Of a stretch of 64,000 bases of DNA, positions 18,902 through 39,857 are shown one piece after another. The translations under genes and the position numbers were made by a program. The stretch's first letter is position 1. The number at the start of each line of letters is the position of its first letter. The notes below the pieces were generated by a model, which saw nothing but the letters and a program-made list of their open reading frames with translations, made no database searches and was not told the DNA's origin. Source of the stretch: Herminiimonas arsenitoxidans (GTDB lineage: Bacteria > Pseudomonadota > Gammaproteobacteria > Burkholderiales > Burkholderiaceae_D); NCBI RefSeq assembly GCF_900130075.1, contig NZ_LT671418.1, positions 1,054,001 to 1,118,000 of the forward strand, read 5' to 3'.

Positions 18902-19170
18902 TAGAACTCATTTCACAAATAGCCGCGAGTGCGAACGCGGCTATTGGGGAGGTAATGCAAGACGTGTCGCGCAGCCAAGGGTGGTTCCCTTGGTAAGCGG
19001 CGCAACGCAGCAGTACGCCCCAATAGCCCGTTCCCTTCGGGTTCTTGTCAGAAACGGCGCTGGCCGCGTTGCGCTCCTTGCGCATAGCTCGCTATGCGAC
19101 GCGTCGCACGCCTTGCCAGCACCGTTTCTGACAAGAACGCATCTCACGGATATTTGTGAAATGAGTTCTA
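18902..19170. repeat. Structured dispersed repeat, copy 1 (269 bp, long terminal inverted repeats)
   Basis: This copy begins TAGAACTCATTTCAC and ends with the exact reverse complement. The perfect 20-bp terminal inverted repeat is 18902-18921 with 19151-19170. Internal perfect stems are 18939-18949 with 19018-19028 (11 bp), 19042-19057 with 19122-19137 (16 bp), and 19081-19088 with 19091-19098 (8 bp, 2-base loop). A CCAAGGG/CCCTTGG hairpin is also present. No transposase is encoded. The last three bases read, on the minus strand, as the TAG stop of the DUF1178 gene. The flanking TA on each side would fit a TA target duplication if the element proper is GAACTC...GAGTTC. Copy 2 is at 39586-39853. 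Confidence 0.92.
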
Positions 19171-19581
19171 ATGTTTCAATACATCGGGAATAGGCAAAGT
19201 CATGACATCGACTCCCTCTTCTGCCAACGCAGAACGTTCGTCAGCCGTCGCAGTACCACGTATGCCGTGTTCCGGTACTTCCTTGTAATGAATGCGACGT
19301 GCTTCTTCGGCAAATTGATTGCCGACGTCTTCCGTATTGGCAATCACCTTGCGCGCAAAATCCATTAACTGATCTTGCTTACGTGCGCTGTCGTCGTTCA
19401 CACGCGCAGTGGCACCGGACAAATTTAAACGAGGGGATGATGGTAAACGTTTGATCTCTTGATTGCCGCATAAAGGGCATTCAATCAAATGTTGGGAGGA
19501 TTGTGTGAGGAAGTCATCTTCGGAGGAAAACCATCCCTCAAAGCGATGATCGTGTTCACAACAAAGGTTATAGACTTTCAT
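19168..19581 (-). CDS. DUF1178 family protein
   Basis: A 137-residue protein beginning MKVYNLCCEHDHRFEGWFSS, with a likely zinc-ribbon built from Cys7/Cys8 and CPLCGNQ near residue 36, followed by a charged helical tail. It belongs to the widespread proteobacterial DUF1178 family, whose function is unknown. Its stop codon TAG (19168-19170) is the end of repeat copy 1, so the insertion may have reset the C-terminus, which ends in LKH. It lies six bases downstream of the mature end of tRNA-Leu. Confidence 0.85.
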   Translation of the reverse strand: MKVYNLCCEHDHRFEGWFSSEDDFLTQSSQHLIECPLCGNQEIKRLPSSPRLNLSGATARVNDDSARKQDQLMDFARKVIANTEDVGNQFAEEARRIHYKEVPEHGIRGTATADERSALAEEGVDVMTLPIPDVLKH

Positions 19582-19586
19582 GAGTT

Positions 19587-19673
19587 TGGTGCCCGGGGCC
19601 GGACTTGAACCGGCACGCCTATTAGAGCGAGGGATTTTAAGTCCCTTGTGTCTACCGATTTCACCACCCGGGC
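19587..19673 (-). tRNA. tRNA-Leu (anticodon UAA)
   Basis: An 87-base tRNA on the minus strand: acceptor stem GCCCGGG/CCCGGGC, discriminator A, encoded CCA (19587-19589), long variable arm and TTCAAGT T-loop. The anticodon loop CTTAAAA gives UAA. It matches the last member (leuZ) of the glyW-cysT-leuZ order known in E. coli. Confidence 0.96.
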
Positions 19674-19711
19674 ATAATCACGATTTTAAACCACGATTCT
19701 AGGACAAAATA

Positions 19712-19730
19712 AAAGCGCTCGCGGCGCTTT
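19712..19730 (-). terminator. Hairpin between tRNA-Cys and tRNA-Leu
   Basis: A 7-bp stem AAAGCGC/GCGCTTT with a five-base loop, followed on the minus strand by TATTTTG. It may be a processing signal or weak terminator within the tRNA transcript. Confidence 0.5.
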
Positions 19731-19739
19731 CAGAAAAAT

Positions 19740-19813
19740 TGGAGGCGGGGGTCGGGATCGAACCGGCGTAAACGGCTTTGCAGGCCGCTGCATAACCACT
19801 TTGCTACCCCGCC
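19740..19813 (-). tRNA. tRNA-Cys (anticodon GCA)
   Basis: A 74-base tRNA on the minus strand: acceptor stem GGCGGGG/CCCCGCC, discriminator U (diagnostic for Cys), encoded CCA (19740-19742). The anticodon loop CTGCAAA gives GCA. A -10-like TACAAT lies about 10 bases upstream (19824-19829) without a clear -35 box. Confidence 0.96.
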
Positions 19814-20173
19814 ATGGGGCCGTATTGTACCGCGCATACTATGTTGCCGCATGTGCATAACAAAACGAAAACGAAATCTCAAACCTTCAGCGAATAAAAA
19901 AGGAAGCTGACGAACGAGCTCCCTTTTGGAAATCCGAATCGGAAAGATTTTCCGGTAGCGCGTATTATGCCCTAGTATGCTGCAGCTTTGCAAGATGTAC
20001 TGGCACGCAAATGCCTAGTAACGTTCCATGCACGGCATTAACGCGCCTGTCTCCGCAGTTACCATCCCCTGCTGATACAAAATCTGAGCGTCGGGAGCTA
20101 CGCTGGTCATGTGATGACTCTTTGCATAGAATGCTGTTTTTTATCATCGCGACAGAATCGGAATTGTTTATCC
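19814..20173. other. 360-base gap between tRNA-Cys and the two-component system
   Basis: No gene is seen. It contains a terminator-like hairpin on the minus strand (stem 19900-19908 with 19917-19925, followed by six T and TATTC). Its 16 bases AATAAAAAAGGAAGCT (19893-19908) recur exactly at 33771-33786 between the two tRNA-Gly genes. No tRNA precedes it here, so it looks like a remnant of the tRNA operon. A second hairpin GGAAATC/GATTTTCC lies at about 19928-19952. The right part should hold the promoter of the regulator gene, but I see no confident boxes. Confidence 0.6.
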
Positions 20174-20896
20174 ATGAATAGAACGAATACGGCGACTACC
20201 CCGCTCGTACTGGTCGTCGAAGACGAAACCGAACTGTCCGACATCCTGCTGGCCTACCTGCAACGCGACAACTTGCGTACCTTGCATGCAGCGACCGGCC
20301 CAGATGCCTTGCGACTCTTCCGCGAACATCAACCTTCTATCGTACTGCTCGATATCCGCCTGCCTGGCAAAGATGGCGTAGATGTCTTGAAGGAAATTCG
20401 TCAGGAAAGTGATACGCCTGTCATCATGACAACAGCATTGGCAGACGATCTGGACAAAATGCTCAGTCTGCGATTGGGTGCCGACGACTATGTTGTCAAA
20501 CCCTACAATCCGGCCGAAATCATAGAACGCGTGCGCGCCGTGCTACGTCGCACATTCCGTGCGCCAGAGCCGCGCAACGATGCTCCTCTGCGCATCGGCC
20601 AACTCGAAATCGACCAACAGGCTTACACCGCGCGCGCTTTCGATGAGCAGGAACGTCCTGTTGTGCTGCCACTGACACTGACTGAATTCCGCATTCTGGT
20701 CTGTCTTGCAAAACGCCCCAAGCGTTGCTTCTCACGCGCAGAACTGATCGAGGCATGCTTGCCGGAAAGCGATGCACTCGATCGCGTGATCGATTCCCAT
20801 CTGAGCAAATTGCGGAAAAAATTGCAGGACGCAGGTTGCAACGATTTGATTGAAACCGTACGTGGCATCGGATACCGACTATGGCGCGATACCTAG
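20174..20896 (+). CDS. OmpR-family response regulator (BaeR-like)
   Basis: A 240-residue regulator. The receiver domain has the acidic pair VVEDETE (residues 14-20), phospho-acceptor Asp in IVLLDIRLPG near residue 60, and Lys in VVKPY near 109. The winged-helix DNA-binding domain follows from about 140 (LTLTEFRIL, then IDSHLSKLRKKL and RGIGYRL). It overlaps the histidine kinase gene by 16 bases and precedes an exporter, so it probably controls the following operon. The start at 20174 is chosen because the receiver begins directly after; a longer frame from 20111 has no support. Confidence 0.92.
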   Translation: MNRTNTATTPLVLVVEDETELSDILLAYLQRDNLRTLHAATGPDALRLFREHQPSIVLLDIRLPGKDGVDVLKEIRQESDTPVIMTTALADDLDKMLSLRLGADDYVVKPYNPAEIIERVRAVLRRTFRAPEPRNDAPLRIGQLEIDQQAYTARAFDEQERPVVLPLTLTEFRILVCLAKRPKRCFSRAELIEACLPESDALDRVIDSHLSKLRKKLQDAGCNDLIETVRGIGYRLWRDT

Positions 20897-22032
20897 ACCG
20901 CATCTGGGTCCGCTTCGGACTCGGCATCGCGGCAACAGTGCTGGTCACCATGGTCGTCATGGGCGCGACCAGCTATGTGTATGGACAAGTGGAATTCGAG
21001 CGTTTTCGCGAAAGCCTTCCCGAACAAGTGCGAGTGGAATTCGATCTGCTCAATGCACGTGATCTGGATGACAGCCCGCGCGCGATGGAAATCTACCAGC
21101 AGTACTGGCTAGGTAATCGCTGGGATACAGATACCTTCGCGATTATCATCGATCTGCTGGTATGCCTACCATTTGGCTTGGTCGCCGGCTTATGGACTTC
21201 ACGTATGGTCACGCAACCGGTGCAATCGATAGCCGAGGCTGCACGCCGGGTCGCTGTGGGTGATTTCAGTGTGCGCGCGCATGCCCGTAGTCAGGGTGGA
21301 GAAATGACCAGCCTGGTCAACGATTTCAATCACATGACCGATGCGCTGGAAACGCTGGAGCGCGAGCGCAAATCGACGATGGCAGCGATTTCGCACGAAT
21401 TACGTACACCGTTGGCAGTGCTACAGGCCAGACTGCATGCGATATATGACGGCGTGATCCCGGCCGATCCGAAAGAGTTTTCGCGGCTGCTGGAACAAGT
21501 GCGTCATCTGACACGCCTGGTGAGCGATTTGCATACTCTTTCCGTGGCAGATGCGGGACGCTTGTCTTTGCATCGCAAAGAGCTTGATCTGGTCGCATTG
21601 GTACGTGATGTTCTCGCCAAATACGCCAGCCGCCTTGAAGCGCACGGCATGCAGGCCGAATTGACGATACAGGGCAAGATTCCGCTGATACAGGCGGACG
21701 AAGATCGCTTGCATCAGATGTTGAACAACCTGATTGAAAATGCACTGCAATACGCCCAGAGCGGTGGCTGGCTGGGTATCGATCTGCAATCCAAGGATAG
21801 CGATGTTGTCATTTCAGTCAGCGATGCGGGCGAAGGACTTTCGGCAGATATGCATGAACAGGTATTCCAGCGCTTTCACCGTCTGGATCCGTCGCGCAAT
21901 CGCGCCACTGGCGGTAGCGGATTAGGTCTGTCGATAGTGCGTACATTAGTAGAATTGCAAGGTGGCCATGTTTCCATCGACAAGGCTGAACGTGGTGGCG
22001 TGCGTTTTGTCATTCAGTTGCCACGTAGCTAA
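20881..22032 (+). CDS. Sensor histidine kinase (BaeS-like)
   Basis: A 383-residue membrane kinase. TM1 is at about residues 13-33, a short extracytoplasmic loop of about 55 residues follows, then TM2 (about 82-102), HAMP (about 103-155), the HisKA domain with the phosphorylated His in AISHELRTPLAVL (about 168), and an ATPase domain with the N box NLIENALQYA, G1 DAGEGLS and G2 GGSGLGLS. The small sensor loop favours detection of membrane stress or membrane-inserted compounds, as in BaeS and related kinases; this is inference. Partner of the regulator upstream. Confidence 0.92.
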   Translation: MARYLDRIWVRFGLGIAATVLVTMVVMGATSYVYGQVEFERFRESLPEQVRVEFDLLNARDLDDSPRAMEIYQQYWLGNRWDTDTFAIIIDLLVCLPFGLVAGLWTSRMVTQPVQSIAEAARRVAVGDFSVRAHARSQGGEMTSLVNDFNHMTDALETLERERKSTMAAISHELRTPLAVLQARLHAIYDGVIPADPKEFSRLLEQVRHLTRLVSDLHTLSVADAGRLSLHRKELDLVALVRDVLAKYASRLEAHGMQAELTIQGKIPLIQADEDRLHQMLNNLIENALQYAQSGGWLGIDLQSKDSDVVISVSDAGEGLSADMHEQVFQRFHRLDPSRNRATGGSGLGLSIVRTLVELQGGHVSIDKAERGGVRFVIQLPRS

Positions 22033-22077
22033 CTCGCGCCGCCCTCCCTATCTCCATCATTTCTCCACAATATCTGC

Positions 22078-23574
22078 ATGGCGGCGCAATCTTGCGCGGC
22101 CAGAATCGGGTTTTCGGCAATAACGGGCTATTTCGCCTCTTGCCGCCCCTTTCAAGCGGATACCCATTTGCTGCGATTTCCTCTCTCCAGATTTGCTGTT
22201 TCATGCGTATCGCTCATGCTGGTGTCGGGCTGCGCGCAAGTGGACATGCCCAAGCTGCCCAACCTCCTGCCGTCACACTGGACGCAGACACCGGCCGTAT
22301 CTGCTCCCAATAAAAATATCCCGCCTGTTGATCTGACTGGCTGGTGGAAGCGTTTCGGTGATGCCGAGTTAGATGCGCTGGTCGAACGTGCCTTGAGCTC
22401 GAATATGTCACTGCTGCAAGCCAAGCTCAGACTGCAAGCTGCACGTGCATTGGCAGGCAATGTCAGCAAAAGCTATTTGCCGCGCTTGGACTTTAGCTCG
22501 TATGGAACAGAAGATGCATCGGCAGTGGACTCTTATTATCAATTGAGTCTGGGCGCAGTCTGGAAACTAGGCTTGTTCGGCGCGCAAGAAGGTGCTGAGC
22601 GACAAGCTGGTGCCAGCGTAGAACGTGCTGCAGCGGCCGAGCAAGAAGCAAGAGTGGCATTGGTAGCTGAAGTCGTGCGCAATTATCTGGAACTACGTGC
22701 CGCACAACAACAAATCGCTACCGCAGAAGAACTGGTCACGTTAGACAAACGCACTCTGGAATTGACAGAAGTACGCATCACCAACCGCCTTGCCGGCCCC
22801 GAGCAACGCTTGCAGTTGCAAGCACGACTGGCGCGCACGCAAGCAGCACTCAGCCAGCCTAAACAGGCCGAAGCGCGCGCGTTATACGCATTGGCAGCAT
22901 TGGTAGGACAAACCCAGCCGGACAGCAATTGGTCCCAGCCTCATCCATTACCGGCTTTACAGACAGTAGCCATTACACAAGTTCCAAGTGACCTGTTACG
23001 TAGTCGTCCCGACATGCGCATCGCTGAGGCAGAAGTATTGCAAGCGGTTGGCGAACTTGGCATTGCCAAATCCGCGCTGTATCCGCGTATCGCAATTGGT
23101 GCGTCCTATCTGTATTCCTACAATGTGACCCAGAACAGAAGAGTGACTGAGAGTGGCGTACCGACCATAGGACCGCTGATCGATCTCCCGTTATTTGACT
23201 GGGGACAACGTCAAACCATCGCAGCAGCACGCAAGCATGAAGTAGATGCGTCACTTGCAGGTTACCGACAAGTATTGCTGGACAGCGTTGCGCAGGTAGA
23301 AACCGGCATTGCATTGCTGACGCAAGCACAACAACGCGTGCAATATCTGCGCGATGCGCTTGCAGCAACGCAAACCATGGCAGATAAAGACCGCTCCTTG
23401 ACGCGACTGGGATTATCCAGCGAATGGAACGGCCTCGAATACAAACAGAATGTGCTGCAGGCGAAGCAATCGCTGACTGCGGCTGAAACTGATTACGGCA
23501 TTGCCTACGCCACCTTGTTCCGCGCTCTCGGTGGCGCGCCTATGCCACCAGCTGATAACGAGCCGCAATCATGA
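22078..23574 (+). CDS. Outer-membrane efflux lipoprotein (NodT/OprM-type, TolC family)
   Basis: A 498-residue outer-membrane factor with two OEP repeats and a lipobox (LMLVSGC). As drawn, about 50 residues precede the Cys, too long for a lipoprotein signal. An in-frame TTG at 22168 behind AAGCGGA would give a normal 22-residue signal and may be the true start. Motifs GWWKRFGDAELDALVERAL and SDLLRSRPDMRIAEAEVLQA are typical of the family. It forms the trimeric channel for the ABC exporter encoded next. It overlaps the permease gene by four bases. Confidence 0.9.
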   Translation: MAAQSCAARIGFSAITGYFASCRPFQADTHLLRFPLSRFAVSCVSLMLVSGCAQVDMPKLPNLLPSHWTQTPAVSAPNKNIPPVDLTGWWKRFGDAELDALVERALSSNMSLLQAKLRLQAARALAGNVSKSYLPRLDFSSYGTEDASAVDSYYQLSLGAVWKLGLFGAQEGAERQAGASVERAAAAEQEARVALVAEVVRNYLELRAAQQQIATAEELVTLDKRTLELTEVRITNRLAGPEQRLQLQARLARTQAALSQPKQAEARALYALAALVGQTQPDSNWSQPHPLPALQTVAITQVPSDLLRSRPDMRIAEAEVLQAVGELGIAKSALYPRIAIGASYLYSYNVTQNRRVTESGVPTIGPLIDLPLFDWGQRQTIAAARKHEVDASLAGYRQVLLDSVAQVETGIALLTQAQQRVQYLRDALAATQTMADKDRSLTRLGLSSEWNGLEYKQNVLQAKQSLTAAETDYGIAYATLFRALGGAPMPPADNEPQS

Positions 23575-24695
23575 TTCCACTGGCTCGCAAAACACTGCTG
23601 TACGAATGGTTCCGCTTCATGCCGGCCGTGATGGCCGTCGGCTTTGCCGGTGTTCTGCTCGCCGTACAGGCAGCGCTGGTGATGGGTATTTTCGGTAGCG
23701 CTGCGGTGTATGTCACCGCTTCTTCCGCTGATTTATGGGCTGGCTATCCAGGCACGCAAAGTGTCAATTTCGGCCGTCCGATAGGACAGGATGTAGAAAT
23801 GCGCTTGCGTATGGATCCAGACGTGACCGCGGTAGAGCCATACATTTGGGTTGATGGCGACTGGCGCGGTAGTGCCGGTGCCAGCGGCGTCTCGGTTTAT
23901 GTATCCGGTATAGACACACAGGGCAGCATGATGTTTTCGCGCATACTCTCGCCCGGTATGCGCCAGCTATTGCAAGAACCGGGCGCCGTCATCATCGATC
24001 GTGCCGAGCGTGATCAATTACGCGCTGGAGCTGATGACACTGCCTGGATCAATGGCCAGCGTGTCCATATTGTTGCAGCTCTCAATGGCTTGCGTGGCCT
24101 CGGTGGCGTCAACGTGATCACATCGTTGGATACCGCACGCATGCTGCAAACAGATGGCGCGCAAGGTCCTAGCTATTACGTCGCAAAGCTGCGCCGTGAC
24201 GCGAAACCAGCAACGGTTGCAGCGCGCTTCGAACCTGATCCACGCTTTGGCCCGTTCTCGGTATGGACCGCACGCTCCTTTGCCAAACGTTCCCAACTGT
24301 ACTGGCTGCTCGATACCGGTGCCGGTGTAGCAGTCCTGTTCATGGCCGCAATTGTGTTGCTGGTAGGTGCAGTCATCACCAGTCAGTCGCTACTCGGTGT
24401 GGTCGCATCTTCAGCACGTGAATACGCCATGCTGAATGCGCTCGGCGTCAGTCACCGTTCGCTCAGTCGTGTCGTCATCTCGCAATCCGGCTGGATAGGT
24501 GGAGCCGGATTGATCATCGCGACACTGGCTTCTGCTGCACTGCTGATGATCGCTGCCGCGTATGGCGTGCCCATCAACATGAGCATATCGGTCGCGCTCA
24601 TTTGCATGGCCTTGGTTTTAATACTGGCGCTCGTTTCCGGCCTGTTTGCATTGCGCGGATTGATGCGTGCAGACCCTACCCTGTTGTTAAGGTAA
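23571..24695 (+). CDS. ABC transporter permease (FtsX/MacB-DevC type)
   Basis: A 374-residue permease with an N-terminal TM helix (about 18-42), a large periplasmic domain of about 220 residues, and three C-terminal TM helices (about 262-282, 306-333, 341-360) in the FtsX fold. Length and layout match DevC, the permease of the DevBCA-TolC glycolipid exporter of cyanobacteria, better than full-length MacB, which carries its ATPase on the same chain. Together with the adaptor and outer-membrane factor it should form a tripartite exporter. Substrate unknown. Only three bases separate it from the ATPase gene. Confidence 0.88.
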   Translation: MIPLARKTLLYEWFRFMPAVMAVGFAGVLLAVQAALVMGIFGSAAVYVTASSADLWAGYPGTQSVNFGRPIGQDVEMRLRMDPDVTAVEPYIWVDGDWRGSAGASGVSVYVSGIDTQGSMMFSRILSPGMRQLLQEPGAVIIDRAERDQLRAGADDTAWINGQRVHIVAALNGLRGLGGVNVITSLDTARMLQTDGAQGPSYYVAKLRRDAKPATVAARFEPDPRFGPFSVWTARSFAKRSQLYWLLDTGAGVAVLFMAAIVLLVGAVITSQSLLGVVASSAREYAMLNALGVSHRSLSRVVISQSGWIGGAGLIIATLASAALLMIAAAYGVPINMSISVALICMALVLILALVSGLFALRGLMRADPTLLLR

Positions 24696-24698
24696 ATC

Positions 24699-25448
24699 AT
24701 GCCGCTCGACATTAACAACTCTCCACCTAGTCTGGCCGCCGAGCGCGTCAGCAAGTCTTTTCTTTCCGGCTTGGTACGCATCCACGTTCTGCAACGGCTG
24801 TCCGTATCGATTTATCCAGGCGAGCTGACATTAATCTCCGGACCATCTGGTTGCGGCAAAAGCACTCTGCTATCGCTGCTCAGTGGACTGCAGGCACCAG
24901 ATGAAGGCAGTGTGACAGCACTGGACGAAGAGCTGAGCAATATTAATCGGCATCAACTGGAACGCTTCCGTCTCAAGCACACAGGATTCGTGTTTCAAGG
25001 TTTCAATCTTTTCCCCGCTCTCACTGCTTGCGAACAGGTGCAATTGCCGCTTGGTTATATGGGCATGAACGACAACGACTCGCGCAAAAGTGCGATGGCG
25101 GCATTGGAAGAAGTCGGCATGTCGCATCGCGCCGATGAACGTCCGGCAAAACTGTCCGGCGGCGAACGTCAACGCGTTGCGATTGCACGCGCTATCGCCA
25201 AGCAACCGCAACTGTTATTTGCAGATGAACCGACCAGTTCTCTCGATGCCGACAATGGTCAGAACGTGATCGACATACTGCATCGCATCGCCCACACGCA
25301 CCAAGCCACAGTGCTGTGCGTCAGCCATGATCCACGCCTGATCCGGCACGCTGACCGCGTACTGGAAATGGAAGATGGCGTAATTCGCAATGATTGGCGC
25401 CCTGAACGTAACCGGCCCACGTCACTTTATAAAGAAGGACAACAATGA
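24699..25448 (+). CDS. ABC transporter ATP-binding protein (LolD/DevA type)
   Basis: A 249-residue ATPase: Walker A SGPSGCGKSTLL (about 48-59), Q-loop GFVFQGFNLFP, signature LSGGERQRV (about 152), Walker B LLFADEPTSSLD (about 171) and switch His in VSHD (about 208). It is of the MacB/LolD/DevA subgroup that drives mechanotransmission-type FtsX permeases. It overlaps the adaptor gene by four bases. Confidence 0.93.
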   Translation: MPLDINNSPPSLAAERVSKSFLSGLVRIHVLQRLSVSIYPGELTLISGPSGCGKSTLLSLLSGLQAPDEGSVTALDEELSNINRHQLERFRLKHTGFVFQGFNLFPALTACEQVQLPLGYMGMNDNDSRKSAMAALEEVGMSHRADERPAKLSGGERQRVAIARAIAKQPQLLFADEPTSSLDADNGQNVIDILHRIAHTHQATVLCVSHDPRLIRHADRVLEMEDGVIRNDWRPERNRPTSLYKEGQQ

Positions 25449-26353
25449 TGAATGCCCACCGGCATATTTGCAGCCTGCTGACACTGAGCGCCTGCATCGG
25501 CCTGACTGCCTGCTCCGATGACAAACCGGCCGCAGCACCCAAAGCTGCTGGAAACGATCATGCCTACGTTGCCATCGCACGCGGCAAGATTGAAGCACAA
25601 GGCGGCCTGGTTGCTATCCAACCTGCGCAAGATGGTCGTGTCGTACGTTTGCCAGTCAGCGAGGGACAACAAGTTGCGTCCGGTGCTGTGCTCGCAGAAC
25701 TCGACAGTCGCAATGAACAAATCGAATTGAGTGAATCCGAAGCACGTCTGCGTCAGGCACAAGCACAGGCGCAAGCAGCGAACTTGCCATTGTCCGGTGC
25801 ACGCGATCTGGCACAACGACTGCATCAGGCTGCCGAAGCCGGTGCCAGCGACGTACAACGTGCGGATGAAGCCAATCAACGCGTGCAACAGCTGCAAGCT
25901 GCTGCCACGATCTCCGGTAACGATGTCGCGATTGCACGTGAACGAGTAGAAGCTGCCAAGCAACGTCTTGCTGCACGCACTTTGCATGCGCCACAAGCTG
26001 GCACCATCATCATGCTCGACGCCACCATAGGCACACAAACTCTGGCACAAGGTGGCAAGCCGCTGATGACCTTGTTGCCAGCGCGCCCACCGCAAATCCG
26101 CGCCGAGTTGAATGAGAGTTTTGTATCGCAAGTCAAACCCGGCATGCATGCCGACATCAGCATCGAAGCCGACCCGCAACGCAAACCTTTGCGCGCACGT
26201 GTAGTACGCATCGGGCAGGTATTCGCTAATAGCCGTCTCAGCGACGATGGCAATCCACGCAGCAATTTACGTGTGGTCGATTGTGTACTGGCCTTCGACG
26301 AAGTGCCGGATGTACGTATCGGACAAAATGTGAGAGTGAGCTTCCATGAATAA
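25445..26353 (+). CDS. Periplasmic adaptor lipoprotein (HlyD/DevB-type membrane fusion protein)
   Basis: A 302-residue adaptor with a lipobox (CIGLTAC, Cys near residue 23), a split biotinyl/lipoyl domain (GRVVRLPVSEGQQV and APQAGTIIML), an Ala/Gln-rich coiled-coil hairpin (about 95-180) and a beta-barrel domain. It bridges the ABC permease and the outer-membrane channel. AAGGA lies upstream; either of the two adjacent ATG codons could start it. It overlaps the HAD phosphatase gene by eight bases, tying export to the enzymes that follow. Confidence 0.9.
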   Translation: MMNAHRHICSLLTLSACIGLTACSDDKPAAAPKAAGNDHAYVAIARGKIEAQGGLVAIQPAQDGRVVRLPVSEGQQVASGAVLAELDSRNEQIELSESEARLRQAQAQAQAANLPLSGARDLAQRLHQAAEAGASDVQRADEANQRVQQLQAAATISGNDVAIARERVEAAKQRLAARTLHAPQAGTIIMLDATIGTQTLAQGGKPLMTLLPARPPQIRAELNESFVSQVKPGMHADISIEADPQRKPLRARVVRIGQVFANSRLSDDGNPRSNLRVVDCVLAFDEVPDVRIGQNVRVSFHE

Positions 26354-27071
26354 GAACCTGAACTTCCGTCCTGTCACGGCATCCAGACAGACACCGTCCG
26401 AAATGTCGGAATGGGCAATTCAATGTGATTTCGACGGCACGATCAGTACCGTTGACGTAACTGATTCTCTGCTTAATCGCTTTGCCCGTGACGGCTACGA
26501 AGAATTGGAAGAAGCGTGGGTACGTGGTGAAATCGGCTCGCGTGTGTGTATGCAAAAACAAATCGCCTTGCTCGATATGAGCATGGACGACTTGCACGCG
26601 CATCTGGATCTGATTGAAATCGACCCAGCTTTCCCAGCCTTCGTACAAGCCGCATCGGCACGCGGACTGCCGCTGCAAATCGTCAGTGATGGCATGGACT
26701 ATGTCATCACCTATGTATTAAAACGCCATGGCCTCGGCCATCTGCCGGTCCTGGCCAATCACTTGGTACAAACCGGACCACGTAGCTGGCAATTGCAATC
26801 ACCACACGCCAGTGCAGCTTGCGGCCGTAACAGTGGCACCTGCAAATGCGCTCTACTGGAAACACAACGCGCCAAGCATCCGCGCGTACTTTTCATCGGC
26901 GATGGCACATCCGATTTCTGCGTATCTGGTCAAGCCGATTTCGTATTGGCCACCAGCCGCTTGCTCGAACATTGCCGCAAACACGATTACTCGCACGCCG
27001 CTTTCGCCGACTTTGATGAAGCTATTACTCTGCTGTCGCAGGTAGTCGCAAGAGAGGAAATGCAGGCATGA
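26346..27071 (+). CDS. HAD-IB family phosphatase (MtnX/phosphoserine phosphatase-like)
   Basis: A 241-residue HAD hydrolase. The nucleophile motif is CDFDGTIS near residue 27, motif II IVSDGM near 115 and motif III FIGDGTSDFC near 180, with a small alpha-helical C1 cap between. It is similar in build to MtnX and PSP-type phosphatases that act on small phosphorylated metabolites. A CGRNSGTCKCAL segment adds four clustered Cys before motif III, perhaps a metal site or structural feature. There are no methionine-salvage genes nearby, so a biosynthetic dephosphorylation in this cluster is more likely. It overlaps both neighbours. Confidence 0.85.
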   Translation: MNKNLNFRPVTASRQTPSEMSEWAIQCDFDGTISTVDVTDSLLNRFARDGYEELEEAWVRGEIGSRVCMQKQIALLDMSMDDLHAHLDLIEIDPAFPAFVQAASARGLPLQIVSDGMDYVITYVLKRHGLGHLPVLANHLVQTGPRSWQLQSPHASAACGRNSGTCKCALLETQRAKHPRVLFIGDGTSDFCVSGQADFVLATSRLLEHCRKHDYSHAAFADFDEAITLLSQVVAREEMQA

Positions 27072-31915: not shown

Positions 31916-33275
31916 GCTTGGCGCGTGTCAGCAGTTGATCCAGCAAGACCATCGCTTCATCGATCTCGTCACGACTGATCATCAACGACGGTGCGAAGGT
32001 GATCACGTTTTTGTAGTAACCACCTACGTCCAGCACCAAGCCACGTTTCTGACCTTTGTACTCGAGTGTACCTTCCAGACCCATGTCGACCATCTTGTCG
32101 AGCAAGGCACGGTTAGGTGTAAAGCCGTCGTCCGTGCAAATCTCTGCGCGCAAAGCCAGACCCAAACCATCGACATCGCCGATTTCCTTGTGACGTTTTT
32201 GCAGATCACGCAAACCTTCGAGGAAGTACGCGCCGCTATCGCAGACTTGTTTTCCAAAGTCCACTTCGTGCGTCATCTTCAACACTTCCAGACCGATGGC
32301 AGTGCCCAGCGGATTGGATGCGAAAGTCGAGTGTGTCGAACCTGGAGGGAAGATCGTAGGATTGATCAACTCTTCGCGCGCCCACAGACCGCTCAGTGCA
32401 TTCAAACCATTCGTCAACGCTTTGGCAAAAACCAATACGTCAGGTTGCACGCCAAAGTTTTCGATCGACCAGAGCTTACCGGTACGCCAGAAGCCCATCT
32501 GGATTTCATCGACCACCAGCAGCACGCCGTGATCGTCCAATACCTTCTTCATACCTTTGAAGTAGTTCGGTGGTGGGATAACGTAACCACCCGTGCCTTG
32601 AATCGGCTCAATGTAGAAAGCAGCGTATTCGCATTGATTAGCCTTTGGATCCCACACTGCGTGATATTCGTTTTCGAACTTGCGCGCAAATTCCTTGACC
32701 AGCGACTCACCGTATTCTTCAGCCGTCATGCCTTTAGGACGACGGAATGGATAAGGGAAAGGCAGGAAATGCGCACGGTCGCCGAAATGACCGTAGCGAC
32801 GACGATAGCGGTAGCTGGAAGTAATGCTCGATGCGCCCAAGGTACGGCCGTGATAACCACCTTCGAAAGCGAACATCAGGCTCTTGCCATTGCTGGCATT
32901 ACGCACAATTTTCAATGAGTCTTCAATCGCCTGCGCGCCACCGACGTTGAAATGTACGCGACCTTCACGGCCCCATTTTTTTTCTGCATCCTGAGCGATC
33001 CATTTTGCCAATTCAATCTTGGTTGGATGCAAGTACTGGCTGGCAATCTGTGGCAACACGTCGAGCTGCTTCTTCATCGCATCTTCAAGACGCTTGTTCT
33101 TGTAACCGAAGTTAACGGCCGAATACCACATCTGTAAATCAAGGTAACGCGTATCCTCAGCGTCGATCATATAGCTGCCTTCGCAGCCGGCGAAAATCTT
33201 AGGCGGGTTAACGTAATGGACGGTATCGCCGAAGGAACAGTATTTCGCTTCGTCAGCCAACAGGTTTGCGCTCAT
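31908..33275 (-). CDS. Class III (omega) aminotransferase
   Basis: A 455-residue PLP enzyme of fold type I, subgroup II. Motifs are FNVGGAQAIEDSLKIVR (PLP phosphate site, about 110-126), EGGYHGRTLGASSIT, VVDEIQMGFWRTGKLW (PLP ring Asp) and FAKALTNGLNALSG (Schiff-base Lys near residue 285). It transfers an amino group to an aldehyde or keto end of an unknown substrate. The gene starts the minus-strand operon with the acyltransferase and arginase-fold genes. It is too divergent to call ArgD, BioA or GabT. Confidence 0.87.
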   Translation of the reverse strand: MSANLLADEAKYCSFGDTVHYVNPPKIFAGCEGSYMIDAEDTRYLDLQMWYSAVNFGYKNKRLEDAMKKQLDVLPQIASQYLHPTKIELAKWIAQDAEKKWGREGRVHFNVGGAQAIEDSLKIVRNASNGKSLMFAFEGGYHGRTLGASSITSSYRYRRRYGHFGDRAHFLPFPYPFRRPKGMTAEEYGESLVKEFARKFENEYHAVWDPKANQCEYAAFYIEPIQGTGGYVIPPPNYFKGMKKVLDDHGVLLVVDEIQMGFWRTGKLWSIENFGVQPDVLVFAKALTNGLNALSGLWAREELINPTIFPPGSTHSTFASNPLGTAIGLEVLKMTHEVDFGKQVCDSGAYFLEGLRDLQKRHKEIGDVDGLGLALRAEICTDDGFTPNRALLDKMVDMGLEGTLEYKGQKRGLVLDVGGYYKNVITFAPSLMISRDEIDEAMVLLDQLLTRAKRA

Positions 33276-33641
33276 GCATACTCCAGATTGTGCGTTGAAA
33301 AGTCATTGCTAGCCCTTAGGCGCAAAGACGACTGGCGTCATTCTGGAATGGCAATCTTTCGCAACTGTCGAGGAATTGTGTGGAATTTGTGGAGGGAAAA
33401 GCTGGAAGACCAGAACATCTCACAAACATCATGACGATGACAGAATTGAAAGCTCATAAACAGCCCGCTGATGACAAAACGAAAATGCAACAGCATCCCA
33501 TTTTGCATAGGCAAGACTGCATAACAGCGTATGCGTCATGCAAATAACAGCGGAAGAATATGAAAGTGAAGCGGAAATGAAAAAAGGAGCTATAAGCTCC
33601 TTTTTTAACACCTGATGTCTGCAAATTATTGCAGTTAAATC
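33276..33641. other. Gap between the class III aminotransferase and tRNA-Gly
   Basis: No gene is supported; short open frames here are low-quality. The only clear structure is the terminator hairpin at 33580-33606. The promoter of the aminotransferase operon must lie in 33276-33580, but I see no confident -35/-10 pair. Confidence 0.5.
33580..33606. terminator. Terminator after the tRNA-Gly genes
   Basis: A perfect 12-bp stem AAAAAAGGAGCT/AGCTCCTTTTTT with a three-base loop, about 35 bases downstream of the second tRNA-Gly on the minus strand. It is symmetrical, so it can work in both directions. Confidence 0.85.
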
Positions 33642-33717
33642 TGGAGCGGGAGAAGAGTCTCGAACTCTCGACCTCAACCTTGGCAAGGTTGCGCTCTACC
33701 AACTGAGCTACTCCCGC
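33642..33717 (-). tRNA. tRNA-Gly (anticodon GCC), second copy
   Basis: A 76-base tRNA on the minus strand: acceptor GCGGGAG/CTCCCGC, discriminator U, encoded CCA (33642-33644). The anticodon loop TTGCCAA gives GCC. Identical to the copy at 33811-33886. Confidence 0.97.
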
Positions 33718-33770
33718 ATGTACTTCTTACTACATCAAACCGTTTTGAATGATCATGTCGCACATCATTC

Positions 33771-33801
33771 AATAAAAAAGGAAGCTTGTTCAGCTCCCCT
33801 T
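33771..33801 (-). terminator. Hairpin between the two tRNA-Gly genes
   Basis: An imperfect hairpin (AAGGAAGCT with AGCTCCCCTT) followed on the minus strand by six T and ATT. It begins with the 16-mer AATAAAAAAGGAAGCT that also occurs upstream of tRNA-Cys at 19893-19908, suggesting a duplicated inter-tRNA element. Confidence 0.6.
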
Positions 33802-33810
33802 TAAAATATT

Positions 33811-33886
33811 TGGAGCGGGAGAAGAGTCTCGAACTCTCGACCTCAACCTTGGCAAGGTTGCGCTCTACCAACTGAGCTACTCCCGC
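33811..33886 (-). tRNA. tRNA-Gly (anticodon GCC), first copy
   Basis: A 76-base tRNA, identical in sequence to the copy at 33642-33717, with encoded CCA (33811-33813). It lies directly behind a consensus promoter and downstream of pgsA, like glyW in E. coli. Confidence 0.97.
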
Positions 33887-33900
33887 ATCGACAGGTGCAC

Positions 33901-33928
33901 ATTATAGAGGAATGACTTTGCTTGTCAA
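33901..33928 (-). promoter_or_regulatory. Consensus sigma-70 promoter for the tRNA-Gly genes
   Basis: On the minus strand TTGACA (33923-33928) and TATAAT (33901-33906) are separated by 16 bases, both perfect matches. The predicted start point is just before the first tRNA-Gly. Confidence 0.85.
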
Positions 33929-33947
33929 GCACTCCACACAGCAAAAC

Positions 33948-34535
33948 TTACAATAAATGCCCTGCACTTTCTTTAATCAGTGGCCATGCCTTGCGTAAAT
34001 AATAAAACATTGACCACACCGTCAATACTGCTGCGACCCACAACAGAATATCGCCCCAGAATTTAAGGTTGATGCCCCAAATAGTGTCGTAATAAAGCAG
34101 CATCGGAATCGCTACCATTTGTGCAATCGTCTTGATCTTGCCGAGTGAACTAACAGCAACCGATTTCGATGCACCGATCTGCGCCATCCATTCGCGCAAA
34201 GCGGAAATCGTAATCTCGCGACCGATAATGATGAAGGCGATCACCGCATTCACCCGCTCAAGCTCGATCAACACAAGCAAGGCACCAGCGACCATCAGTT
34301 TGTCAGCTACCGGATCAAGGAAGGCACCGAAGGCAGAAGTCTGATTCCAGCGGCGTGCGAGAAAACCGTCTATCCAGTCTGTCAGCGCCGCGACGATGAA
34401 AATCAGCGTGGCCGCAAGACCCTGCGTTTTATTGAAGGAACCCAGCCATGCATCCGGGATATACAACACGCCGACCATCAATGGAATCAGCGCGACTCGT
34501 AGCCATGTAAGAAGAATAGGAATATTGAAGGGCAT
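33948..34535 (-). CDS. pgsA: CDP-diacylglycerol-glycerol-3-phosphate 3-phosphatidyltransferase PgsA
   Basis: A 195-residue inner-membrane enzyme that makes phosphatidylglycerol phosphate. It has the CDP-alcohol phosphotransferase motif DWIDGFLARRWNQTSAFGAFLDPVADK (DGxxAR-x8-GxxxDxxxD, about residues 52-78). Several TM helices and the family phrase GREITISALREWMA are present. The start at 34535 fits the conserved N-terminus MPFNIPILLTWLR; upstream codons belong to the uvrC-side gap. uvrC-pgsA-tRNA-Gly order is conserved in proteobacteria. Confidence 0.95.
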   Translation of the reverse strand: MPFNIPILLTWLRVALIPLMVGVLYIPDAWLGSFNKTQGLAATLIFIVAALTDWIDGFLARRWNQTSAFGAFLDPVADKLMVAGALLVLIELERVNAVIAFIIIGREITISALREWMAQIGASKSVAVSSLGKIKTIAQMVAIPMLLYYDTIWGINLKFWGDILLWVAAVLTVWSMFYYLRKAWPLIKESAGHLL

Positions 34536-34593
34536 ATCAAACTTTACGTTTCCATGAAGGGCGCAGGACAAGCATTGCCTGCGCACCCGTAAT

Positions 34594-36450
34594 CTAATGC
34601 AATTGCTTGTAAATGTCTTCTGCCAATTGCCGAGAAATGCCTTCCACCGACGATAAATCCTCGATACTGGCATCCACCACACCACGCAAGCCACCAAAAC
34701 GTGCCAATAGCTTCTGTCTACGCTTGGCACCTATACCTTCAATTTCCTCCAAACGCGAGGTCTGGCGTGCCTTGGCACGCTTGGCACGCATGCCGGTAAT
34801 GGCAAAACGATGCGCTTCATCGCGTATCTGTGCAATCAGCATCAAAGCGCCCGATTCCTTGCCCAGTTCCTGCGCGGCACGACCATCGACGAAAACTAAT
34901 GTTTCCAAGCCAACTTTACGGCCCTCGCCTTTAGATACGCCAACGATCAGACTGATATCCAGTCCAAGTTCGACAAATACCTGACGCGCTACTTCAACCT
35001 GCCCTTTGCCACCGTCGATCAAAACGACATCCGGCATCACGCCATCGCCATTGGCAACCTTCTCATAGCGACGCAACAAGACCTGACGCATCGCAGCGTA
35101 ATCATCGCCCGGCGTGATGTCGTTGATATTGTAGCGACGGTATTCGCCATTCTGCATAGCATGATGATGGAACACGACGCACGATGCCTGCGTTGCTTCA
35201 CCTTGTGTATGACTGATGTCGAAACACTCCACACGAAATGCTTCGATATCGGCTACGTCTATGCCCAAAGCATCAACCAGCATGCGAGTACGTGTTTGTT
35301 GCGAACCTTGCTCCGACAAAAGACGCGCGAGCGAAATTTCTGCGCCCTTGTGCGCCATCTCCAGCCACTGACGACGCTGCCCTTGTGGCTGGAACACCAG
35401 ATTGATGCGATGACCGCATTGCTCCATCAACGCCAGCATCAATTCAGGCTCATCAAATTCCGTATTCAAAATCAGCGTGCTCGGAATGAATTTATCGATG
35501 TAATGCTGCGCAAGGAAAGCCTTCATCACTTCAGCCGCGATCGACTCTTCTGCATTCGTCAGCGCATTATCGACATGTGTTGGGAAGTAGGCGCGATCAC
35601 CCAGATGCCTGCCGCCGCGCACCATCGCCAGGTTGACGCAGGCGCGACCACCCTGCACGATCACCGCGATGATGTCGATATCGGCATCGCCACCGGTTTC
35701 CATGCTTTGCTGATGTAGTACGCGCGACAAGGCATTGATCTGATTGCGTACAACTGCGGCTTGCTCGAACTTCAACTCTTCCGCATAGGCCAGCATTTTC
35801 GCCTGCAATACTTCCAACACTTCGCTCTGGCGACCACGCAAAAATTTGGCTGCATTCTCTACATCCAGCGCGTAGTCTTCCTTGCTAATGTAATTGACGC
35901 AAGGTCCGCTGCAACGATGAATCTGATGCAACAAACAAGGTCGCGTACGATTGGCAAAAACTGAATCTTCACAGGTACGCAGCAGGAAGACCTTTTGCAA
36001 AATCTGCATCGATTCCTTCACTGCCCAGCCGCTGGGGAAAGGACCGAAATACTGATTCTTCTTATCCACCGCGCCGCGGTAGTAAGCCATACGCGGGAAT
36101 TCTTGCCCGGTAATTTTCAGGTAAGGATACGACTTGTCATCGCGAAACAAAATGTTGTATCGCGGCTGCAAAGTCTTGATCAGATTGTTTTCAAGCAGCA
36201 GCGCTTCTGCTTCGCTACGCGTAACCGTAGTCTCCAGGCGCGCGATGCGCTCTACCATCATCGCAGTGCGCGGGCTGGCCAGATTCTTCAGAAAGTAACT
36301 GGAGACGCGCTTCTTCAGATCACGTGCCTTGCCAACGTACAAGAGCTTGTCATCGGCATCGAAATAGCGATACACGCCAGGCAAATGCGGCAACTTCGCA
36401 ACCGTTTCCAGCACGATTGCACGCGGATCTGGAGGCTCTATTTCAGACAT
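34594..36450 (-). CDS. uvrC: Excinuclease ABC subunit C (UvrC)
   Basis: A 618-residue nucleotide-excision-repair nuclease. The GIY-YIG domain (LPGVYRYFD ... [13 protein letters not shown]) is at the N-terminus, a Cys cluster [13 protein letters not shown] near 175, a UVR domain near 205-240, an RNase H-like C-terminal nuclease region ([20 protein letters not shown]) and terminal helix-hairpin-helix motifs. Full length for the family. Confidence 0.97.
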
Positions 36451-36474
36451 TACACGCTCATCTAAATGTCAGGT

Positions 36475-37548
36475 TCAAGCAGCAGCGAGAGCTTGCGCAG
36501 CTTTCTTCGCAGCGATATAACGTGCGTCCTTCTGCAAGGCATCCCATGTCAATGCAGGTGATTGCGGCGTCAATGCGGCGATACGCGCAGCGGATTCTTG
36601 CATCGCCTTGTTATCTTTGACCTTCAAGTCATTCAATAACTGATCCGCCTTGTCTGGCGAATTGCAAATCAGCACCATGTCGCAACCTGCATTCAATGCA
36701 GCATGCGCACCATCAATCACCGTACCTGCAACGCTGGCGCCTTCCATGCTCAGATCGTCACTGAAGATCAAACCTTCAAAACCAAAATCCTTGCGCAACA
36801 TGGTCAGCCACTTACGCGAAAAACCTGCAGGATGCTTATCCACTTTAGGATAAATCACATGCGCAGGCATCACACCGGCAAGACTTAAACCGAGCCAGTC
36901 ATACGGCGCAGCATCTTCTGCCAGTATTTGCTCCAGCTCGCGCTCATCGACTGGAATCTCCAGATGCGAATCCGCTTTGACAAAACCGTGCCCTGGGAAG
37001 TGCTTGCCACAGTTCAACATACCCGCCAGCATCAAGCCATGATTCAAGCTCTTGGCCAGCATCGTCACAACGCGTGCGTCGCGATGGAAAGCACGATCGC
37101 CGATCACACCCGATTCGCCGTAATCCAAATCGAGTACAGGTGTGAATGACAAATCAACGCCACAGGCACGCAATTCTGCTGCGAGCACGTAACCAACATC
37201 GGTCGCTGCTTTAGTCGCAGCCAACACATCTTTATCCCACAAGGCACCTAACTTGCGCATTGCTGGCAGATGCGTAAAACCATCTGTCTTAAAACGTTGT
37301 ACACGTCCGCCCTCATGATCAACTGCGATTACTATGCCTGGTCGTGCAGCATGGATGGCAGCCGTCAAAGCTGTCAATTGCGCGCGATCTGTGTAATTGC
37401 GCGCGAACAGAATCACACCACCGGTCAGTGGATGTTGGATGCGACGAATATCCTCTGCACTTAAAGTTGTACCCACTACGTCCAACATGACCGGGCCAAA
37501 TTTTTCTGCCGAATTTGAAGCTGCTGAATTTAAAACTACTGCGCTCAT
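36475..37548 (-). CDS. nagZ: Beta-N-acetylhexosaminidase NagZ
   Basis: A 357-residue glycoside hydrolase family 3 enzyme of cytoplasmic peptidoglycan recycling. Motifs are [30 protein letters not shown] (the NagZ KH(F/S)PGHG-x4-DSH signature with the acid/base His) and [10 protein letters not shown] (nucleophile Asp). It overlaps acpS by four bases. Confidence 0.96.
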
Positions 37549-37937
37549 TTTTTCTCCACAATTACAAAAGCGACCGCATACTCGACTTCATCCGTAATCG
37601 AAACCTGTGCGGTCAGTCCGTTTTCCTGCATGAATTCTTCCAGCTTGCCGCTAGTGACAACGATAGGTTTGCCACTAGGCGCATTCAATATCTGCGCAGC
37701 ACGCCATGTCATCGGCATGTGTATGCCCAAACCTATCGCTTTGGAAAATGCTTCCTTCGCCGCAAAGCGCGTCGCTAGAAAACGCAAGCCGCGCGCCTCT
37801 ACCTTGGCTTTGCGTCTATGGTATTTTTCCAGCTCTTCCTTGCCCAATATACGTTCGGCAAAACGATCACCATGCCGGCCCAGCGCCGCAGCTATGCGAT
37901 CTATCTTGATAATATCGGTGCCTACGCCGTATATCAT
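37545..37937 (-). CDS. acpS: Holo-[acyl-carrier-protein] synthase AcpS
   Basis: A 130-residue phosphopantetheinyl transferase that activates ACP (acpP is in this window at 51039). It has [16 protein letters not shown] at the N-terminus and [11 protein letters not shown] near residue 58. The start at 37937 gives an ATGA overlap with pdxJ and matches the family N-terminus; the longer frame to 38003 is shadow. Confidence 0.96.
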
Positions 37938-38701
37938 TTCTTCATTCCAGCCAGACGCGCAGCGATCATGATCGCCTTCATTTCGCGCACGGCATTTTGC
38001 CAACCGACAAATACGGCGTGCGCAACGATGGCATGGCCGATATTGAGTTCAGCGATATCCGGGATCGCGGCAATCGCCTGCACGTTGGTGTAATGCAAAC
38101 CGTGACCGGCATTGACTTTTAAACCGCGCGCCATGCCTTCTGCTACACCACGCTGAACGCGCTGTAATTCAGCTTGCTGTTGCGTAGCATCGTGTGCGTC
38201 GGCATAACGTCCTGTATGCAATTCAATCACTGGTGCACCGGCTTCAGCTGCAGCTTGAATTTGCGCAGCATCGGCATCGATGAACAAACTTACGCGTATA
38301 CCTTCAGCCTGTAATTGTTTGACCGCTGCGGAGACCACGTCAAAGTATTTAACGACATCCAGCCCACCTTCGGTCGTCACTTCTTCACGACGCTCAGGCA
38401 CCAGACAAACATCTTGTGGCTTGATGCGGCAGGCGAAATCGACCATCTCGTTCGTCACCGCAGATTCCAGATTCATGCGCGTCAACAACTTCGGGCGTAT
38501 CAACTCAACGTCAGCATCCTTGATGTGACGACGGTCTTCGCGCAAATGCAGCGTGATCGCATCAGCACCAGCCTCTTCTGCCAACAAGGCAGCTTGCAGC
38601 GGATCGGGATACACAGTACCGCGCGCATTACGCAAGGTCGCGACGTGATCGATGTTGATACCGAGGTCGATGATGGTTGAACTAGGTTGAAGAAAGCTCA
38701 T
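37934..38701 (-). CDS. pdxJ: Pyridoxine 5'-phosphate synthase PdxJ
   Basis: A 255-residue TIM-barrel enzyme that closes the pyridoxine ring in vitamin B6 synthesis. Family motifs [39 protein letters not shown] and [10 protein letters not shown] are present. The pdxJ-acpS pair is conserved in proteobacteria. Its product PLP serves, among others, the two aminotransferases of the 20-33 kb block. Confidence 0.97.
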
Positions 38702-38714
38702 GAATGTTATTCCG

Positions 38715-39581
38715 TTAAAGCTGCAGCAAATCGATCAATATTTGACGGGTATTCAGCGGTGCTCCGCTGAGATGATGCGCCAGCAAGAAGCGCATCAGGA
38801 ATTTACTTTGCGTTTGCGTCAGCGCATCTGCGTAATCTTCGTTCTCCATATCCAGCAAAGTCTTGCCGGATACGCGCGGCCATACATCTGCAGGACGGGC
38901 CGGACGCGGCCCACGCTCAGGATCGACTACATAGATTTGTTCGAGGATGATGGCATTGCGAGTCATGGTGCAAGTACGCCAATCACTGGCAACACCCGTC
39001 TCCTTCAGCAAGGCACGCTCGAATTTGCGCAGCACGATAGGTGCCGGCTCGTCATGCGCCAGTTGATTCAGGGCGCTGACGTAATGATCAAACAAGGCTG
39101 GATGAGGATCATCACGCGCCAGTAATTTAACCAGTAATTCATTCAGGTAGAAACCGCACAGCAAGGCCGATTTTTCCAAAGGCAGCAAACCACCGACCCA
39201 CTCCGCCGCAGTCAGCGTACGCACTTCAGCCTTGCCGCTCCAACCCACGGACAAAGGCTGAAAAGTCTGCAAGACACCGCGCAGTTTGGAATGTGGACGC
39301 TTGGCGCCTTTGGCAACCAGCGCAATACGGCCGTGATCGCGCGAGAATACATCGACGATCAGACTGGTTTCTTTATAGGGATAGCTGTGCAGCACAAAGC
39401 CGGGCTGATCGGCGATGCGTGTGTCTTTTTCGGGAGAGCGTACGCGGCGTGGCGCCGCTTTGGCTGTTGTTACAGGCTTGACAGGCAGTGATACGGAACC
39501 GACATCTTCTCCACGCACCGCCGTTTTTTCCTCGGAGGAAGAAGTTGTTTGTGTATTGATGTCGGCGATGAGTACGGCCAT
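38715..39581 (-). CDS. recO: DNA repair protein RecO
   Basis: A 288-residue recombination mediator with an OB-fold N-domain ([35 protein letters not shown], from about residue 61). About 58 residues precede the OB fold, longer than usual and Ser/Thr/Lys-rich. The start codon lies five bases from repeat copy 2, so its ribosome-binding region is repeat sequence with no clear Shine-Dalgarno. A later start is conceivable, or the element reshaped the 5' end. Confidence 0.92.
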
Positions 39582-39585
39582 CTTT

Positions 39586-39853
39586 TAGAACTCATTTCAT
39601 GAATATTCGCGAGTGCGAACGCGACTATTTGGGAGGTAGTGCAAGACGTGTCGCGCAGCCAAGGGTGGTCCCTTGGCAAGCGGCGCAACGCAGCAATACG
39701 CCCAAATAGTCCGTTCCCTCCGGGTTCTTAGCAAAAGAGGCGCTGGCCGCGTTGCGCTCCTTGCGCATAGTTCACTATGCGACGCGTCGCACGCCTTGCC
39801 AGCACCTCTTTTGCTAAGAACGCATCTCACGGATATTCATGAAATGAGTTCTA
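39586..39853. repeat. Structured dispersed repeat, copy 2 (268 bp)
   Basis: The partner of 18902-19170, same orientation. The perfect 21-bp terminal inverted repeat is 39586-39606 with 39833-39853. Internal stems are 39623-39633 with 39701-39711, 39725-39740 with 39805-39820, and 39764-39771 with 39774-39781; all remain perfectly paired despite sequence differences from copy 1. One base is missing in the loop of the CCAAGGG hairpin. It fills the space between the era stop (five bases away) and the recO start, inside what should be one transcript. Confidence 0.92.
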
Positions 39854-39857
39854 GATA

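Follow-up and report, generated by a model that had tools for sequence, protein, structure and literature searches.

Here we describe a short mobile element that occurs twice in a window of 64,000 nucleotides from Herminiimonas arsenitoxidans (contig NZ_LT671418.1, positions 1,054,001 to 1,118,000; positions below are those of the window unless a locus is named). Its copies lie on the plus strand, in the same orientation, at 18902-19170 (copy 1, 269 bp) and 39586-39853 (copy 2, 268 bp), as a preliminary description of this DNA had correctly placed them. We think it probable that the element is a non-autonomous miniature inverted-repeat transposable element (MITE) with IS5-family ends, whose conserved unit is a folded DNA kept by template switching together with selection. 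The ends, the matching insertion sequences (IS) in three other genera, the sites free of the element, the copy number and the conserved pairing were all observed directly. In the mechanism that we propose, an IS5-family transposase supplied in trans would insert the element at TA, and arm-to-arm template switching during replication would re-perfect its stems and convert a single mutation into a compensated pair. Copies that lose the twin-arm structure would be removed by selection for an extrudable cruciform with two arms, and a putative protein would read the unpaired motif of each arm.

By the match of one half to the reverse complement of the other, the element is a pair of homologous hairpin arms in inverted orientation. 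A covariance model of arm 1 and the centre (R1, 114 positions) matches arm 2 on the minus strand in both copies, with 57.4 bits in copy 2 and 55.6 bits in copy 1. The layout runs end, arm, CCC-N3-GGG, inverted arm, end. In copy 1 these parts are a left terminal inverted repeat starting with TA (18902-18921, plus strand), arm 1 (18933-19033, plus strand), which is a hairpin with conserved internal loops, a CCC-TTC-GGG mini-palindrome at the dyad centre (19033-19041), arm 2 (19041-19138, minus strand), and a right terminal inverted repeat with TA at its finish (19151-19170, minus strand). The terminal repeats of copy 2 lie at 39586-39605 (plus strand) and 39834-39853 (minus strand). Each arm has an asymmetric loop flanked by GCWAGGCG on one side and by GCAAC on the opposite one. 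In arm 1 of copy 1 the GCAAGRCG box reads GCAAGACG (18957-18964, plus strand) and the GCAACGC box lies at 19002-19008 (plus strand); their reverse complements in arm 2, both on the minus strand, are GCGTTGC at 19066-19072 and, for the GCAAGGCG box, CGCCTTGC at 19109-19116.

The two window copies differ by 26 substitutions, earlier put at about 27, and by the one indel already reported, a single base at 18985. The minimum-energy fold of copy 1 reaches -164.3 kcal/mol (z -14.56), and nine of its pairs are altered on both sides in copy 2, all nine to new Watson-Crick pairs; the terminal repeat and the 11-bp stem contribute two each and the 16-bp stem five. Ten compensated pairs had been claimed; the tenth change, C..G to T..A at 19088/19091, is indeed complementary, but it falls at the apical loop of the CGCATAGC hairpin, where the copy 1 fold leaves it unpaired. 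Randomly placing 26 substitutions gave a mean of 0.33 compensated pairs and a maximum of 4 in 20,000 trials, which rules out a chance resemblance of the two copies. The statement that the four stems contain no unpaired change holds within the boundaries then drawn for them, but not for the fold, where two changes are one-sided: C-G to T-G at 18923/19149, just inside the 20-bp terminal repeat, and G.T to G-C at 18974/18994, in the arm 1 hairpin. The G.A mismatch of copy 1 at 18922 is T-A in copy 2. A coding function was considered and rejected, since the overlapping open reading frames run across stems that vary freely; the element therefore has no conserved protein, in agreement with the first account of it.

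Pairing is conserved well beyond the window. In an alignment of 34 copies (A3), 63 of 89 pairs have changes on both sides, 96.1% of 2,985 cells are paired and the covariation score is 0.414. None of 500 shuffles, which ignore relatedness, attains any of the five covariation measures, and slid structures pair 36.9-42.1% of cells, a control over which the fold is favoured in that it was derived from the same sequences. Stem positions thus covary and do not vary independently, and the claim that the folded form is kept stands. One pair in the set of 81 copies occurs as GC in 31, CG in 21, AT in 16 and TA in 13. Alignment A2 holds 36 of 39 non-redundant arms (without L094, L099 and L195), and A3 lacks L197 and L200 too, which were no longer recovered once one base was added; a 28-copy set leaves out the partial loci L096 and L103, and the 81-copy set leaves out nine of the 65 family loci L138-L202 and three identical copies. 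An extra block, CTCGGCGGCCCC, is present in arm 1 of L099-L102 and L104 (genome G035), and its reverse complement also stands in arm 2 of L102 and L104, so that insertions, too, pair between arms.

The ends connect the element to the IS5 family. They match insertion sequences of this family, 856-859 bp long, in three other genera (G035, G247 and G061), which share the end seen at the left of copy 1. The 856-bp element of G035 (G035:C13:4411-5266) has the ends TAGAACTCATTTCATAAA, identical to the MITE ends over 18 bp, and codes for an IS5-family DDE transposase (PF01609, 48.4 bits; NF033580, 116.8 bits against a cut-off of 110) in two minus-strand frames with IS5 matches, which would give a putative frameshift product. 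Similarly ended IS measure 857-858 bp in G247 and 859 bp in G061. The latter has TAGAACCCATTTCATAAA at one end, as do the G061 MITE copies L187 and L188 at theirs, and TAGAATTC or TAGAACTC at the other; MITE ends in that genome (TAGAACCCATTTCA) are identical to an end of the resident IS. Five of 12 genomes gave a transposase protein match at E <= 1e-10, those of G034 and G158 being fragments or broken copies only. The partner IS (NCBIfam transpos_IS5_3, two-frame) probably belongs to the IS427 group, for two frames and TA insertion fit that group as exemplified by ISPsp10, which is described as having a two-frame transposase and inserting at TA (PMC4133298).

Mobility is evident from copies and empty sites. 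The H. arsenitoxidans genome (G000), a single contig of 3.78 Mb, holds three copies, of which the third is damaged at its left end. Matches to the element occur in 5 of 13 genomes of the genus, as full copies in G000, G001, G004 and G011 and as one weak short match in G012; the genus copies are 268-270 bp long, multicopy and without a transposase gene. With a copy from G035, which belongs to another genus, as the query, 93 of 392 genomes searched in the family, from 16 of 44 genera, gave matches; this search scored only two candidates per genome, so that its copy numbers are minimum values. Named genomes, scanned for a pattern, yielded 36 stretches, which lie in Herminiimonas, Herbaspirillum, Undibacterium, Collimonas and one betaproteobacterial metagenome-assembled genome. 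Relatives therefore hold many further copies. In the window, copy 1 is flanked by the genes for a DUF1178 protein and a MaoC-type dehydratase, and copy 2 by era and recO, all four on the minus strand. The era-recO site is without the element in each of the 11 further genomes of the genus where era was located, and the DUF1178 site in 7 of 9, the remaining 2 being too divergent in synteny to judge. At the place corresponding to copy 2, the era-recO spacer of G004 has a single TA; we infer an exact TA target duplication, between spacers too diverged for a base-exact comparison. Judged by its IS5-family ends, the TA at both ends of each window copy, element-free sites in relatives and many copies, the element is a MITE, which was one of the two identities first suggested for it. 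Two side observations concern short inverted repeats: the era-recO spacer of G011 (L326:1440-1500) holds a different short inverted repeat, ATTCATTTCG...CGAAATGAAT, and palindromes of 38-60 bp, with little beyond two facing MITE ends, occur at G011:C10:154664-154701 (L126:301-338), G004:C10:101057-101116 and G001:C1:2280187-2280246. These palindromes are probably core-deleted derivatives.

The other part of that suggestion, that the element is specific to a lineage, is contradicted by its distribution. In the order, R1 at E <= 1e-4 finds the arm in 133 of 399 genomes, belonging to 63 of 159 genera, and in the phylum in 49 of 398 genomes, belonging to 35 of 213 genera; outside the order the best scores are 71.0 bits for a genome of the same class (G964) and 86.9 bits for one beyond it (G812). 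The model was given a short calibration, and its search range was the element's own phylum. Among 53 distant loci found with R1, 35 also have the second arm, inverted and sharing the CCC-GGG centre as an overlap, and 18 are without one at E <= 0.001. A query containing one arm of L287 matched five plasmid records (Azotobacter, Pseudomonas and Halomonas), none covering 80% of its length; neither window copy 1 nor a query containing one arm of L254 matched any plasmid. Searches of E. coli with arm 1 of copy 1 and of phages with the L187 element, and an exact-pattern scan of viral contigs, found nothing.

Across this range the core stands behind many kinds of ends. In 56 chosen elements (a set without L240, L249, L251 and L270) the terminal repeats have a median length of 31 bp, and the elements measure 257-373 bp, 52 of them 262-287 bp; a first pass had found terminal repeats for 51 of 54 elements (none for L240, L251 and L270). 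Crude clustering gives 23 end types, or about 20 allowing for clusters split by end trimming (L197/L200 and probably L198/L202), and a crude test for TA was positive in only 29 of the 56. One explanation is joint descent, in which core and ends have always stayed together and the ends diverged gradually along with their transposases; the narrow length range would agree with this, as would the TAG(A/G)(A/G) with which many ends begin. However, L200 and L202 are 94% identical in their cores and 39% in their ends, and L197 and L097 88% and 43%, whereas window copy 1 and L097 share 89% in their ends and 67% in their cores (L198, being out of register, was not used in this comparison). The H. arsenitoxidans genome itself has two end types, for a further element at G000:C1:3511010-3511276 (L004:1476-1742) has both arms and a different 28-bp end, TAGGGCCTGTTAAGCATTAATTTG (TAGGGCCTGTTAAGC...). 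We regard joint descent as unlikely; cores and terminal repeats appear to be partly independent modules.

Another, related end pattern gave 93 and 86 matches in G757, against 13 and 12 for the reversed control; these roughly 180 occurrences in a genome of 4.6 Mb (G757:C1) suggest a large MITE expansion. In G482 an end pattern was not in excess over the control. A genome of the same genus as G757, G590, carries an IS5-family element, about 848 bp long, whose ends (AGAGCCTGTTTACGATCTT) are close to GAACGTGTTCACGATCTC of the MITEs.

Why the fold persists is a separate question, for which the preliminary description had offered arm-to-arm correction of the stems by template switching, without selection. 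Under this explanation the elements are MITE relics whose stems are re-perfected by replication errors and whose folded core is unselected. Template switching is reported to create and maintain perfect hairpins (PMC8794818), and it accounts for the strict pairing and the clustered multi-base compensation that we see; it would also fit the apex of arm 1 in Herbaspirillum-type copies, which is changed on both sides. In these copies (L178-L180 and L190) the apex is a long perfect hairpin whose sequence varies while its pairing is kept, and the loop motif below it is unchanged. The mechanism thus suits the stems, but not the conserved unpaired motif. Over the 81 copies, 26 of the 69 unpaired or fold-dependent columns inside the ends have an entropy below 0.3, and the conservation of unpaired columns is concentrated in the motif. 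A G.A mismatch beside variable pairs is kept in most copies (G in 79 of 81, A in 75 of 81), and the motif and the two-arm layout persist in other families and classes, which would not be expected of neutral relics. Template switching is therefore insufficient to explain the low-entropy unpaired columns, the kept G.A and the reach of the core, and we think it improbable that it acted alone. We favour correction combined with selection on the folded DNA, a selection step that we infer.

A structured noncoding RNA transcribed from a single strand, such as a substrate for RNase III or an intercistronic regulator, would equally be selected for its fold, with the MITE ends merely spreading it. The very stable fold, the strong covariation and the conserved unpaired bases are what such an RNA would show, and both window copies lie between co-directional genes with which they could be co-transcribed. 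An RNA should tolerate G-U better than A-C on the strand that is transcribed. Over the 81 copies, however, at pairs chosen by Watson-Crick covariation alone, G-T mispairs number 64 and A-C mispairs 98 in 3,997 cells (a few of the 50 pairs are not nested and probably spurious); this count replaces an earlier one on pairs common to both folds (G-T 120, A-C 192), which was biased towards symmetry. The 30 copies below 90% identity give G-T 36 and A-C 44 in 1,467 cells. The 46 nearest-neighbour copy pairs, which are not independent, yield 75 compensated pairs, and of their 122 one-sided changes 36 are G-U, 46 A-C and 40 other. Published values serve as the RNA yardstick: in RNA genes, 78.5% of two-step compensations are reported to have affected G-U or U-G (PMC8794818). 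The folding energy of the alignment is nearly equal on both strands (-270.7 and -271.9), and the orientation of the element relative to co-directional neighbours is the same in 11 places and opposite in 8, a crude count of little weight that misjudged both window copies and left 5 of 53 places, at contig edges, unclassed. Rfam 15 reported only four tRNAs in the window at the gathering score, and for 10 element loci its best score was 31.5 bits against a cut-off of 96. In dead copies mispairs would be symmetric under any model, so what argues for DNA is that no additional class of G-U mispairs is seen. The absence of a G-U preference and the inverted homology of the arms do not favour a structured intercistronic RNA, the second identity first suggested, and we consider it quite unlikely; the conserved thing is more likely a DNA structure than an RNA.

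Several results weigh against a folded-DNA unit on an IS5-ended MITE. Transitions make up 47 of the 75 compensated pairs and transversions 28, a share close to the 61.0% transitions given for RNA genes (PMC8794818), and it therefore does not discriminate between RNA and DNA. In distant arms oriented by the motif and realigned without structure, the structure-fitted alignment A4 (G-U 87, A-C 18) leaning towards G-U, there are 87 G-T and 46 A-C mispairs (56 to 28 in the better arm and 31 to 18 in the second). Because the second arm is inverted, a single strand carries 74 and 59, a drop that speaks against an RNA. Among pairs formed in the plus-strand fold only, two are T-G in 81 of 81 copies and others in 33 and 42; such pairs would be acceptable in an RNA of the plus strand. 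The average unpaired column is not better conserved than the average paired one (mean entropy 0.80 vs 0.72). As for the partner IS, all 12 protein matches to the G061 IS have an in-frame TGA in the queried part, and a protein search at E <= 1e-10 found no such IS in the four Herminiimonas genomes tested (G000, G001, G004 and G011), whose element copies look orphaned.

Several known repeats resemble the element in part. Correia/NEMIS, ERIC and RUP are likewise small, TA-ended, multicopy MITEs with stable stem-loops, but their stem-loops are described as arising from the two ends (PMC2229807), whereas here there are two homologous inverted arms, an end sequence of its own and a core with many ends; they are set apart by description, with a comparison of sequences through Rfam only. 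The Caulobacter CIR repeats share two arms and a linker and differ, by description, in a GANTC motif at the loop (PMC2229807), where our element has GCAAGGCG/GCAAC in internal loops. Insertion sequences of the IS427 group within the IS5 family share TA insertion (PMC4133298) and, in three genera, the ends of the MITE; they differ in having a transposase and an interior that is, as far as seen, unrelated to the twin-arm core. The Tn3-derived TIMEs of Pseudomonas are non-autonomous, about 262 bp long and have conserved core stretches, but they are described with 38-bp Tn3-type ends and target duplications of 5-6 bp (PMC4133298), in contrast to IS5-type ends and TA. In Pseudomonas fluorescens, R6 (177 bp) and R200 (320 bp) are intergenic and of similar size, some such repeats having been proposed as MITEs (PMC2718517); the comparison is by description only. 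Hairpins maintained by template switching also combine perfect stems with multi-base compensation arising in DNA replication, but those described are in RNA genes (PMC8794818), and ours belong to a transposable element with a conserved motif. REP/BIME are palindromes of 20-40 bp, tagged GTAG or CGTC and RAYT-borne (PMC3733652). We rejected them as an identity for an element of 270 bp with IS5-type ends, and made no search for RAYT. The integron attC is a folded-strand recombination site beside cassettes and an integrase. It was considered on account of the conserved unpaired bases; the boundaries of the element are transposon ends.

What we consider new, as far as our literature search reaches, is one twin-arm core behind many ends: no description of the element was found in the open-access literature, subscription papers and supplements being outside that search. 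More tentatively, the loci may form an undescribed superfamily of the Pseudomonadota in which one conserved DNA cruciform of two arms, each with a fixed unpaired motif, has been joined to about 20 kinds of IS-type ends. The core would then be the selfish part, its structure being recognised by the transposases or by a host factor of replication or recombination, in a way that raises its chance of being copied, and its RNA-like covariation would be of DNA origin. Covariation is used as near-proof of a functional RNA, and this element family displays textbook covariation together with DNA-like mispairs. As a large family that spans several classes, it is a natural test set for RNA selection against template switching or cruciform selection, and a conserved noncoding core behind many transposon ends makes the role of such a core for a MITE testable. 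The R1 model can be used to annotate many proteobacterial genomes.

The surroundings of the window copies add two minor observations. The end of copy 1 supplies the TAG (19168-19170) that now closes the DUF1178 frame; in relatives this frame ends a few codons further on, so that the insertion trimmed the C-terminus. Copy 2 lies downstream of the genes for RNase III (40757-41731) and era (39586-41731 for the whole arrangement), and its stems, if transcribed, would be natural substrates of RNase III.

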